Part shown: piece by piece, positions 1,560 to 63,807 of the stretch
Numbering within the stretch: position 1 is the stretch's first letter
Layout of the letters: each line of letters begins with the position of its first letter
Source of the DNA: Gammaproteobacteria bacterium
Lineage (GTDB): Bacteria > Pseudomonadota > Gammaproteobacteria > Pseudomonadales > IMCC2047
Direction: 5' to 3'
NCBI GenBank assembly: GCA_021773395.1
Contig: JAJFKB010000024.1
Location: 248,001-312,000, forward strand
DNA length: 64,000 nt
Made by a program: the position numbers and the translations under genes
The notes under the pieces: model-generated
The model's input: the letters and a program-made list of their open reading frames with translations, nothing else
Told to the model about the DNA's origin: nothing
Database searches by the model: none

Positions 1560-4500
1560 ATGACCGTGAACAACCAACGAGAAGCCTCCCTAAAGCAAGC
1601 ATTAGAGAATCGAATTTTGGTTCTCGACGGCGGGATGGGCACGATGATTCAAAGTTATGAGCTACAGGAGCAGGATTATCGAGGAGAGCGCTTTTCTGCT
1701 TTCTCCCAATCACTCAAGGGCAACAATGACCTGCTCTCTATTACCCAACCACAGATCATTCAGGCTATTCATGAAGCCTATCTGGAGGCCGGGGCAGATA
1801 TTCTGGAAACCAACACTTTCAATGCCAACAGAATATCCCAAGCAGACTATGGACTAGAGGACAGTGTTTACGAACTAAATCTTGTTGGCGCAAAATTAGC
1901 ACGCGCCGCAGCCGACAAGATAACGGCTATGCAACCAGATAAACCCAGATTCGTTGCTGGGGTTCTGGGGCCAACCAATCGAACAGCAACTTTATCTCCG
2001 GATGTTAATAATCCAGGGTTCCGTAATATCTCTTTTGACGAACTGGCCGACAATTATAGCGAAGCGATAACCGCTTTAGTGGAAGGCGGTGTTGATCTCA
2101 TTTTAATTGAAACCGTATTTGATACATTGAATGCGAAAGCCGCTATTTACGCGGTGCAGGAATATTTCGAAAGGCAACAGATAGAATTACCCATTATGAT
2201 TTCAGGCACCATTACTGATGCCAGTGGACGCACACTGTCAGGACAGACTACCGAAGCATTTTGGAACTCAGTTGCTCACGCCAAACCACTATCAATTGGC
2301 CTTAACTGTGCTCTGGGAGCAGAGGATTTAAGGCCCTATCTGGAAGAGTTGGCTAACAAAGCAGACACCTATGTCAGTGCACACCCCAACGCAGGCCTAC
2401 CCAACGAGTTTGGCGAGTATGAGCAATCTCCCGAGCAGATGGCAGCTATTATTGATGAGTTTGCAGACTCTGGTTTTATCAATATTGTCGGTGGGTGCTG
2501 TGGGACAACACCAGAACATATTCGGGCGATCGCCAATGTAGTGGCTGGATACAGCCCAAGAATCATTCCCGAGCTGCCTGTAGAATGTCGACTCAGCGGG
2601 CTGGAGGCCTTTAACTTTGGCGAAAACTCACTCTTCGTCAATGTTGGTGAACGAACCAACATTACTGGTTCTGCCCGATTTAAGCGGCTGATCCTGGAAG
2701 AAGACTATGACACCGCGTTGGAAGTCGCCCGTGAGCAGGTAGAAAGCGGCGCGCAGATAATTGATATTAATATGGATGAAGGAATGCTCGATTCGCAGAA
2801 GGCGATGGTGACTTTTCTGCACCTGATCGCTGCGGAGCCGGATATATCCAAAGTCCCTATTATGATTGATTCCTCTAAATGGGAAATTATTGAAGCTGGC
2901 CTCAAATGCGTTCAAGGGAAATCTATTGTTAACTCCATCAGCCTGAAGGAAGGCGAACAGGTATTTCTAGAGCATGCCAGGAAATGCCAACGCTATGGTG
3001 CAGCCGTAATTGTGATGGCATTTGATGAAAACGGACAAGCGGATAGCGCAGCTCGTAAAACGGCCATTTGTAAAAGGTCCTACGATCTTCTGCTTAATCA
3101 AATCGGCTTTGCTCCCCAGGACATCATTTTTGACCCCAATATTTTTGCCGTAGCAACGGGAATTGAGGAACATAATAACTACGCGCAGGATTTTATCGAA
3201 GCAACTCAATGGATTAAACAGCACCTGCCTCACGCCTTCATTTCTGGCGGGGTAAGTAATGTTTCCTTTTCATTCAGAGGCAACAACCCAGTACGTGAAG
3301 CGATACATTCCGTGTTTTTATATCATGCAATCCGCCAGGGTATGAGCATGGGTATCGTCAATGCAGGGCAACTGGCCGTATATGATGATCTGCCGATAGA
3401 ACTCAGAAATTGCGTCGAGGATGTCGTCCTTAACCGCACTGATGAGGCAACAGAAAATCTGCTGAACATAGCTGAAAATTATAGGGGCGATGGTACTACG
3501 AAGGAAGTCCAGAGCGAAGAGTGGCGCAGCTGGCCGGTCAACCAAAGACTGGAGCACGCACTGGTTAAAGGTATCACCACCCACATTGATGAGGACACAG
3601 AGGAGGCGCGTCAATTTGCCAATAATCCGATCGAGGTCATTGAAGGCCCATTGATGGACGGTATGAATCGGGTGGGGGATCTGTTCGGATCGGGAAAAAT
3701 GTTTCTACCGCAGGTAGTTAAAAGTGCGCGAGTCATGAAAAAGGCTGTCGCCTACCTGCTGCCTTTCATTGAAGCCGAAAAAGATGGTGCCAAAGCAAGC
3801 AGCAATGGCAAGATACTAATGGCTACAGTCAAGGGTGATGTGCATGATATCGGGAAGAACATTGTAGGTGTCGTTCTGCAGTGCAACAACTATGAAATCA
3901 TAGACCTGGGAGTCATGGTGCCTTGCGAAAAAATTCTTAAGATCGCGCGAGAAGAAAATGTTGACATCATTGGGCTCAGTGGGCTGATTACTCCCTCACT
4001 TGACGAAATGGTGCATGTCGCTAAGGAGATGCAGCGCCTGGAATTCAATATCCCACTTATGATTGGGGGCGCTACAACTTCAAAAGCACATACTGCCGTT
4101 AAAATTACGCCTCAATACCAGAACGATGTCGCTGTTTATGTGGCCGATGCATCACGCAGCGTGGGTGTTGCCGGAAAACTACTGAGTGAGGCAAACAAGC
4201 CGACCTTTATTGCCGCCCAAAGAGAGGAATACGATAAAATCAGAGAGCGTAACAAAAACAGGCGGCCAAAAACCAAACCCCTTTCGTATCAGGAAGCCTG
4301 TGAGAATGCCCCTAAAATTGACTGGAGCGGTTACCAACCACCGCGCCCTTCATTTACGGGAATTCGCAAATTCGAGAACTATCCGCTCGAGGAGTTAGTA
4401 GAGTATATTGACTGGACACCACTGTTTATCACTTGGGAGCTCTCAGGCAAATATCCAAAAATACTACAAGATAAAAAACTCGGCGAGCAGGCCACGCAAC

Positions 4501-5264
4501 TTTTCCAGGATGCACAGACTTTACTGAAACGTATTATTAAAGAAAAGAAATTTCAGGCAAACGCAGTTATAGGATTTTGGCCTGCAAACAGTACGCCATC
4601 CAATGATATAGAGCTTTACACCGACAATACTCGGCAACAGCAAAAAACCACACTCCACCATTTGCGCCAGCAAGCAAAGAAACCGGATGAAAAACCAAAT
4701 TATTCATTAGCCGATTTCGTCGCGCCCAGGAGCTCAGATATTGAAGACTACATCGGGGGTTTTGTCGTCACTACGGGCATCGGTGCTAAAGAGTTTTCCG
4801 AGGAGTTTGCGCGCGCTCACGATGATTACAACGCCATTATGGTCAAAGCTCTGGCCGATCGACTCGCAGAAGCCTTTGCCGAAAGAATGCATGAACGTGT
4901 GCGCAAAGAGTTCTGGAGCTATGGGCAAACAGAAAACTTAACTAACGAGCAACTCATTGGTGAAAAATACCAGGGAATAAGACCGGCTCCTGGGTACCCA
5001 GCTTGCCCAGATCATACGGAAAAAACCACACTTTTCAAGCTACTTGATGCAGAAAAGAAAAGCGGTGTTCAATTAACCGATAGTTTCGCTATGCTGCCCG
5101 CCGCATCTGTCAGTGGTTGGTATTTTTCACACCCGGAATCGCGTTACTTTGGTGTCGGCAAAATTGACCGGGACCAGGTTCATGATTTGGCGAAACGCAA
5201 AGGAATGACCGCTGCAGAAATGGAACGTTGGTTAAGCTCAAATCTGGCCTATGAACCCTCGTGA
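1560..5264 (+). CDS. metH: Cobalamin-dependent methionine synthase MetH
   Basis: A 1234-residue protein, close to E. coli MetH (1227). It transfers the methyl group of 5-methyltetrahydrofolate to homocysteine through methylcobalamin. Domains are in the usual order: homocysteine-binding barrel (about 1-340, with the zinc-ligand motif [11 protein letters not shown]), pterin-binding barrel (about 350-640, starting at VGERTN), a helical cap, the B12 Rossmann domain with the cobalt-ligating DVHDIGKN (Asp-x-His-x-x-Gly), and the C-terminal reactivation domain with [12 protein letters not shown] for SAM binding. A TAAGGA Shine-Dalgarno precedes the ATG by about 5 bases. A 42-bp palindrome lies upstream, and a structured repeat begins 4 bp after the stop codon. 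No defect is seen. Confidence 0.98.
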
Positions 5265-5268
5265 TCTA

Positions 5269-5512
5269 GCCCGGATTTTTCGCCAGGCGCCGGAATTTTA
5301 ACGCGGAGCTGTGTTGAATTGAGTGTGCTCGCGACCGCAAGCGCAGTTATTCTGCGGTGCAGGGAGCATCTGCGTTCAATTCAGCACAGAACAAGTTAAA
5401 AACTGGCCAGCCACATACCGGTGACAAATCGTCACCGCGGCGATTTTAGATCAAAACCAATATGCATAGAGGCTTCAGAGCTGTTTTAGGCATACTGGTG
5501 AAATATTTGGGC
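5269..5512 (+). repeat. Structured TA-flanked repeat element, copy 1 (MITE-like)
   Basis: A 244-bp element with no ORF, lying between TA dinucleotides at 5267-5268 and 5513-5514. Its ends are imperfect inverted repeats: left GCCCGGATTTTT, and right end read inward GCCCAAATATTT. Inside, 5311-5322 pairs with 5376-5387 (12 bp, one G-U), and 5419-5425 pairs with 5431-5437 (CGGTGAC/GTCACCG, loop AAATC). A second copy at 63564-63804 matches along the full length at roughly 88-90% by hand alignment. It fills most of the 328-bp gap between metH and the next gene. TA flanks are typical of IS630/Tc1-mariner-mobilised elements; a structured RNA role is the alternative. Confidence 0.8.
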
Positions 5513-5592
5513 TAGCGCGAGGTCTAGATTCATATGACGCCGAAAAAGGCTCAGGAAAGACAATAGTTCAGCGAATGTAGAGTGGTATCAGC

Positions 5593-62670: not shown

Positions 62671-63564
62671 GTGCCTTACCAATTATCCGCCGATAAATTG
62701 CACCAGGATTTGCAGTGGGCTCTCAGTAGCCCCGACCTAATGGCAGCTCCCGGAACGCTCTGCGAGATGACGGGTAACCTTGAGCTCGCACGCTGGGCTG
62801 CACTGGATAAGCACAAAGAGAAAATACCCGATTATACAGAGCAACGCAGCCCCAAGAAACTGGGCATCTATTTCGAAGTACTTTGGCAATATATTCTGGA
62901 GCAAAACGACCGCTTTGATCTAATTGCCTGTAATCTTCCGGTAAGATCTGACGGAGAAACACTGGGAGAGTTCGATTTTATCTATTACTGCCGTCAACGG
63001 CAGCAATATTATCATCTGGAGACCGCCGTTAAATTCTATCTGGGTATTCCCCATATGCGAGGGGGAAGCACTTCCTGGGACTGCTGGATCGGCCCAGGAG
63101 GCAAAGATCGGCTAGATTTAAAACTCAACAAAATGCTACACAGGCAATCTCAGCTTTCCAAAACGCCACAAGGTGCTTCTGTCATAGCCGAATTGGGTAT
63201 TACACAGGTACATCCAGCGATCTGCCTAAAGGGATACTTCTTTTACCCCTTAACTCAGCTTTGCAACGCACCGAAACAAGCGGGTAATAACCACCTGACC
63301 GGCTACTGGTTACGCATTAGCGAATTACAGCAACTTAATCATAAAAACTTTTGGCTGATATTATCAAAGGATGGTTGGCTGGCTCCAGCATCTGAAAAGG
63401 CAGACACAAAACTGCTCAACAAAGATGCTCTGGAAGAGAAATTACGCTGTTACTTTAGTCATTCCAAATTTCCAAAAATGGTTGCGCATTTAGCACCCTT
63501 TGCAGATGGCTACCGGGAAACCAACCGCTATTTCGTCACTCCGGACAACTGGTTTGGGAGCTAG
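62671..63564 (+). CDS. DUF1853 family protein
   Basis: A 297-residue protein starting at GTG. LGIYFEVLWQYIL, LGEFDFIYYC, YHLETAVKFYLG and GPGGKDRLDLKL are the DUF1853 blocks, which resemble a PD-(D/E)xK nuclease-like core (E-F-D, E-x-K). No biochemical role is known to me. In Pseudomonas the family member is also next to nadK. Its TAG stop is made from the left TA target of the second structured repeat, and the original stop would be restored if the element were removed. Confidence 0.88.
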   Translation: MPYQLSADKLHQDLQWALSSPDLMAAPGTLCEMTGNLELARWAALDKHKEKIPDYTEQRSPKKLGIYFEVLWQYILEQNDRFDLIACNLPVRSDGETLGEFDFIYYCRQRQQYYHLETAVKFYLGIPHMRGGSTSWDCWIGPGGKDRLDLKLNKMLHRQSQLSKTPQGASVIAELGITQVHPAICLKGYFFYPLTQLCNAPKQAGNNHLTGYWLRISELQQLNHKNFWLILSKDGWLAPASEKADTKLLNKDALEEKLRCYFSHSKFPKMVAHLAPFADGYRETNRYFVTPDNWFGS

Positions 63565-63804
63565 CCCGAATTTTTTGCCAAGTGCCAGGATTTTATCGCG
63601 GGCCGTGTTGAATTGAGTGTGCTCGCGACCGCAAGTGCTGTTATTCTGCGGTGCAGGGAGTATGTGCGTCCAATTCAGCACAGAACAAGTTAAAAACTGG
63701 CCAGCCACACGCCGGTGACAAATCTTCACCGAGGCGATTTTAGATCAAAGCCAATATGTGTAGGGGCTTCAGAGCTATTTTAGGCTTACTGGTGAAATAT
63801 TCGG
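63564..63804 (+). repeat. Structured TA-flanked repeat element, copy 2 (MITE-like)
   Basis: A 241-bp element between TA dinucleotides at 63562-63563 and 63805-63806. It aligns along its whole length to the copy at 5269-5512, with about 27-30 differences by eye. The left end is GCCCGAATTTTT; the right end read inward is CCGAATATTT, short of the outer GC pair. The CGGTGA/TCACCG hairpin stem (63713-63718 with 63726-63731) is kept although the loop-side bases differ. Removing the element and one TA leaves GGGAGCTAGCTACCGCGG, in which the stops of both convergent genes lie side by side, so this looks like an insertion into a former 0-bp gap. Confidence 0.82.
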
Positions 63805-63807
63805 TAG

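Follow-up and report, generated by a model that had tools for sequence, protein, structure and literature searches.

What is the sequence of about 245 bp that stands, in the same orientation, directly behind two genes of the window (by which we mean the whole stretch of 64,000 nucleotides analysed here), and how does it come to lie there? A preliminary description had placed it to within a base: the first copy occupies positions 5270..5511 of the plus strand (242 bp, in the orientation that puts its hairpin to the left), and the second, L003, positions 63565..63805, also plus strand and in the same orientation (241 bp). They are 89% identical by BLAST, in keeping with the 88-90% estimated earlier. 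The ends are indeed imperfect inverted repeats, and both match the 17-bp sequence CCCGRATWTTTCRCCAG, read inward: the left repeat of the first copy, CCCGGATTTTTCGCCAG (5270..5286, plus strand), has no mismatch to it and the right one (5495..5511, minus strand) has one. As also expected, there is no substantial open reading frame, the longest overlapping the first copy being of 33 amino acids; over the second it is of 79 amino acids and runs out of the element.

Both copies begin, as had been seen, within 4 bp of a stop codon, and the relation to that codon differs between them. The metH reading frame (a name taken over from the preliminary description; 1560..5264, plus strand, 1234 amino acids) ends in TGA at 5262-5264, one base before a CTAG (5266..5269), i.e. 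outside of it, and a second CTAG, likewise read from the sequence, follows the element at 5512..5515. Behind the DUF1853 gene (62671..63564, plus strand; complete to its C-terminus, PF08907 profile positions 2-284 of 285) the TAG of the left CTAG (63561..63564) is itself the stop codon, and the right flank has degenerated to AGCT. The TA previously reported to flank the element thus lies inside the target, the actual flank being a 4-bp CTAG duplication.

A search of the genome for further copies, which had been proposed as a test, returned 27 matches (BLASTN, E <= 1e-3; best non-self 1.3e-98), or 25 dispersed copies once the pieces of two of them were merged (L018/L023 and L022/L024), so that the element is far from being present only twice, and in 17 of the 25 the duplicated target holds no stop codon. 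Eight are near full length (233-248 bp, L008 with a badly decayed left end), six keep both ends with internal deletions (L015, L017, L020, L021, L022 and L025; 39-143 bp), L018 is an internally deleted copy starting at element position 16, eight are right halves (L009-L014, L016, L019) and two are lone left ends (L026, L027). The right halves start between element positions 119 and 150, near the foot (138) of the hairpin described below, and L015 lacks positions 36-133. Deletion of a long palindrome would explain both the right halves and L015; alternatively, the right halves may have come about by one-ended mobilisation, which the part of PMC9330008 available to us reports for the IS1380 elements ISEcp1 and ISPme1.

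The target duplication has the form YTAR, often CTAG, with TA as the core of most targets. Flanks are identical in six of the 13 two-ended copies of this genome (CTAG three times, CTAA twice, TTAG once; the right end of L015 is shifted by one base in the script output) and differ in the remaining seven. A scan of reference genomes found the end pattern in at least 116 stretches, and identical 4-mers stand at 29 of 54 paired ends of these other loci, against a permutation mean of 11.1 and with none of 20,000 shuffles as high; the 54 rows were taken from among the matches listed, and some of them are false pairs or copies related to one another. Non-palindromic flanks such as the ATAA/ATAA of L045 and L149, and the matching TTAG and CTAA within this genome, indicate that the 4-mer is a duplication and not a part of the element. 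An Omnitrophota assembly holds two 35-bp elements (L044:638-678 and L097:257-297) which consist of little beyond two joined ends, with unequal 4-bp flanks, and are so short that it is hard to picture them as substrates of transposition.

As for the transposase to which such ends could belong, a profile search of 23 genomes, all but two of them chosen for carrying the end, found the IS1380 family (PF13701) in 11. Ends of the CCCGRATWTTTCRCCAG type flank nine PF13701 copies of four element types in four genomes: L150 and L160 of a Rubrivivax assembly, L151, L161, L168, L173 and L177 of Halomonas socia, L154 of a Burkholderiales assembly and L149 of Nitrosomonas sp. Nm33. These elements measure 1.57-1.64 kb with CTAG or ATAA outside; eight fall at 1574-1599 bp, each 17-bp end showing 0-3 mismatches, and L149 is the weakest (about 1630 bp; a 20-bp test gave 4 mismatches at one end and 3 at the other; two stops in frame). 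In the genome studied here PF13358, the sole IS630 model searched, has no match. From ends shared with PF13701 elements, a 4-bp YTAR target and the absence of PF13358, we conclude with high confidence that this short sequence with its 17-bp inverted repeats, 25 dispersed copies and duplicated target is a non-autonomous miniature transposon (MITE) of the IS1380 family; having no DDE transposase of its own, it is a derivative of IS1380 and not an insertion sequence.

Twelve of the 23 genomes gave no PF13701 match, among them Microbulbifer litoralis, host of the closest relative of our element, an absence that may be due to loss or to repeats collapsed in draft assemblies. The genome studied here (a draft of 26 contigs, 98.9% complete) has one PF13701 frame, L155 (G000:C9:13791-16774), with an internal TAG. 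It was considered as the mobiliser and dropped, no matching ends being found at up to 5 mismatches. With its sole PF13701 frame broken and devoid of these ends, the element is probably immobile in this genome at present. By eye, the degenerate frame adjoins the start of an apparent IS3-type orfA, and the relative G001 has a stretch resembling the sequence upstream of that frame at about 600 bp from its element copy, L029.

That the element has moved, as was supposed from the start, is supported by its 25 copies, inverted ends and duplicated target, and also by the earlier proposed comparison of filled and empty sites. G001, the nearest relative and the only other genome of the genus among those searched, holds one copy, L029, its only match, on contig C66; its metH match lies on contig C29 and is closely followed by the same next reading frame, with no element. 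Of three relatives examined for five joined sites, two matched, at four places; besides metH, the places corresponding to the L005 and L017 sites (G001) and the L008 site (G002, a genome with no element match at all) are free of the element, these regions being read by eye with joints that cannot be aligned base by base, and the joined L003 site found no match in the three relatives. None of the 94 other genomes of the order holds a copy (2 of 96 match, one being this genome). With this genome included at every level, 5 of 391 genomes of the order carry exact ends, and for a narrower end pattern the figures are 3 of 369 in the class and 2 of 398 in the phylum; the searches at these three levels brought few new elements, a plasmid collection gave no element match and viral contigs no exact end. 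The ends are thus rare and patchily distributed, and the isolated end matches listed from other phyla may include chance ones.

Why, then, do copies stand behind stop codons? An in-frame stop closing a stretch open for 120 codons or more falls exactly in the duplication at 8 of 36 ends in this genome, so that in 8 of 25 copies the duplicated target is the stop codon, and at 25 of 117 ends elsewhere, where 25 of the 28 stop coincidences within 12 bp sit at offset 0. Seven of the eight proteins of this genome ending in the duplication (DUF1853, LysR, acetolactate synthase small subunit, fumarase C, AhpC/TSA, YceI and histidinol dehydrogenase) have a Pfam domain running to within 3 positions of the profile end, and the eighth, at L012, matches no Pfam family; the completeness of the seven C-termini means that their stops are natural ones and not truncations. 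Genes end at the left end of the element or at its right end, depending on the copy. The target accounts for the position behind stop codons, as YTAR contains TAA or TAG. By a greedy ORF model, YTAR occurs in the window at 585 coding, 128 intergenic and 21 stop-codon sites, and 8 of 25 copies at stops compare with a background of 21 of 149 for YTAR (P = 0.018) and 3 of 17 for CTAG (P = 0.06). The enrichment over surviving sites is modest, and target choice together with survival accounts for most of the pattern.

We propose that an IS1380 transposase acting in trans would bind the ends, as the shared ends suggest, excise the element and join it at YTAR; an insertion into a stop codon would leave the same stop at the junction, as YTAR contains TAA or TAG, so that the element could sit right behind genes without breaking them. 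Insertions at stops and between genes would survive, the mobilising transposase seems to be missing or broken in this genome, and the copies would decay, often with loss of the long hairpin. Mobility is inferred here from the sequence of copies, sites and ends.

The interior of the element raises a further question. The 12-bp stem noticed earlier proved to be part of a longer interrupted hairpin at 5289..5407 of the plus strand (element positions 20-138, 44 bp of stem), and the small hairpin CGGTGAC/GTCACCG was located by folding at 5419..5437, plus strand, in the right-hand domain. Stem length alone is unremarkable, stems of at least 30 bp arising in 57 of 450 dinucleotide shuffles (longest 69); the unusual feature is the shared place. 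The longest stem runs from 18-21 to 138-142 in 15 of 18 elements measuring 240-256 bp, many of which have interiors that do not align, and of the other three L062 and L140 are concentric with the common stem and L036 differs; the 18 rows are partly related, and each was turned to put the hairpin to the left. Shuffled interiors reach that place in 2 of 720 cases in one orientation, which free orientation would roughly double. Among 108 exact ends with at least 146 nt inward, many of which come from full insertion sequences, from halves, from elements of other size classes or from the side that lacks the hairpin, eight have the hairpin there; the two new ones, L084 and L134, come from genomes already in the set and therefore add no independent family.

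Elements with the same ends fall, among the matches listed, into a cluster of 240-246 bp (13 of 54 rows, all in records titled Proteobacteria or its subgroups, i.e. Pseudomonadota) and one of 174-175 bp (8 of 54 rows, Hydrogenedentota accounting for six). Among those of about 175 bp, L045, L054 and L070 (Hydrogenedentota) and L090 form one hairpin over their whole length, L063 has one at 26-147 and L079 has a 10-bp stem only. MITE interiors from different genera are homologous: 46 of 595 interior pairs, copies from one genome included, score above the top of 1,500 shuffled comparisons, and between the local element and those of Microbulbifer litoralis the homology extends from end to end (for L119, nhmmer gave E 8.4e-6 against a set of 35 sequences; three copies, in reverse orientation, reached z values of 5.2, 5.4 and 3.0). 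The 245-bp type of another gammaproteobacterial assembly measures 360 bp at L053:220-585, interrupted by about 115 bp which resemble a further inverted-repeat sequence.

That the hairpin keeps its place in elements whose interiors do not align is a sign, open to testing, that they share a lineage bound by structure. We tentatively suggest, as a possibility short of an even chance, an old and patchy MITE lineage, spanning at least Pseudomonadota and Hydrogenedentota, in which a hairpin of about 120 nt is under selection at a fixed distance from one end while its sequence has changed beyond recognition, so that the hairpin would serve the element. Within such a lineage, presence or absence of a second module of about 67 bp might, equally tentatively, give the 242- and 175-bp classes.

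A rival possibility, likewise well short of an even chance, is that the hairpin is only a relic of an IS1380 leader, similar MITEs having arisen repeatedly from different IS1380 elements. In each of six IS1380 leaders (L149, L153, L154, L161, L162 and L174) there is indeed a hairpin of about 70 nt with its end close to the start of the transposase, the starts (MTKCT/MPKCT-like) being judged by eye. However, that hairpin lies at about 20-103, against about 120 nt at 19-141 in the MITEs; the MITE L061 has no alignment above score 60 to four IS1380 loci of its own genome; and MITE interiors are homologous across genera. The right arm of the leader hairpin reaches the transposase start, as if restraining translation. 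A motif common to the transposase-start region and the MITE interior, sought by eye, was dropped for inconsistent orientation.

A functional RNA or 3'-end element (a terminator or stabiliser), kept by selection behind genes and with its mobility in the past, is improbable. The stability of the long hairpin (core z -2.7), its same place in distant elements and the several copies directly behind stops would suit such a role, and in the eight local copies with L029 helices 1 and 2 are paired to 88 and 93%, with 81.5% of alignment cells paired against 22-41% when slid (a third helix, entered out of register, was discounted). Yet covariation in this very alignment, the check proposed at the outset, is not above the control, 109 of 500 shuffles reaching its score; many copies are deleted derivatives or hairpin-free halves; and genes end at either end of the element, most copies having no stop in the duplication. 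The window has no Rfam family at gathering score, Rfam over 13 loci with relatives gave one match, a tRNA outside the element, and MAFFT with RNAalifold on 17 hairpins produced no usable consensus. As to an IS630/Tc1-type MITE inserting at TA, which the TA core of most targets had brought to mind, we give it hardly any credence: the duplications are of 4 bp, including ATAA/ATAA and TTAG/TTAG, and not a 2-bp TA, the search for an IS630 transposase proposed earlier, made with PF13358, found no match in this genome, and the same ends flank PF13701 transposases.

Among known systems, the IS1380-family MITE shares the 17-bp ends and 4-bp target of PF13701 insertion sequences, a family whose named members in the literature available to us include ISEcp1, ISPme1 and IS1247, and differs from them in its 242 bp, its lack of a transposase and its hairpin of about 120 nt, which was not seen at the ends of four folded IS1380 elements or in three leaders. 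The TTAA target of the piggyBac superfamily is likewise of 4 bp, TTAA is among the common targets here, and piggyBac duplications of TTAG and CTAA are reported in the portion of PMC10813416 at hand, on whose trees, with IS1380 transposases as outgroup, the kinship rests; unlike piggyBac, our element is bacterial and uses CTAG at least as often as TTAA. MITEAba12 is likewise a bacterial MITE, and CREE, TIMEs and MITEPye1, as the sections available of PMC4133298, PMC11578231 and PMC3542288 describe them, are also short, transposase-free, mostly intergenic sequences with inverted ends and stem-loops. In those sections TIMEs are tied to Tn3, MITEPye1 to IS1182, Anabaena MITEs to no insertion sequence and none to IS1380; the literature searched, as far as its text was available, described no IS1380-derived MITE, and had a 12-letter piece of the end, among the matches listed, in three unrelated papers only.

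A class of unannotated intergenic repeats is now tied to the IS1380 family, and repeats on stop codons receive a simple rule, namely that the duplicated target contains the stop. If the reading as an old, structure-bound lineage is true, the hairpin may, for example, aid transposition or prevent insertions that follow a stop codon from doing harm at the level of RNA.
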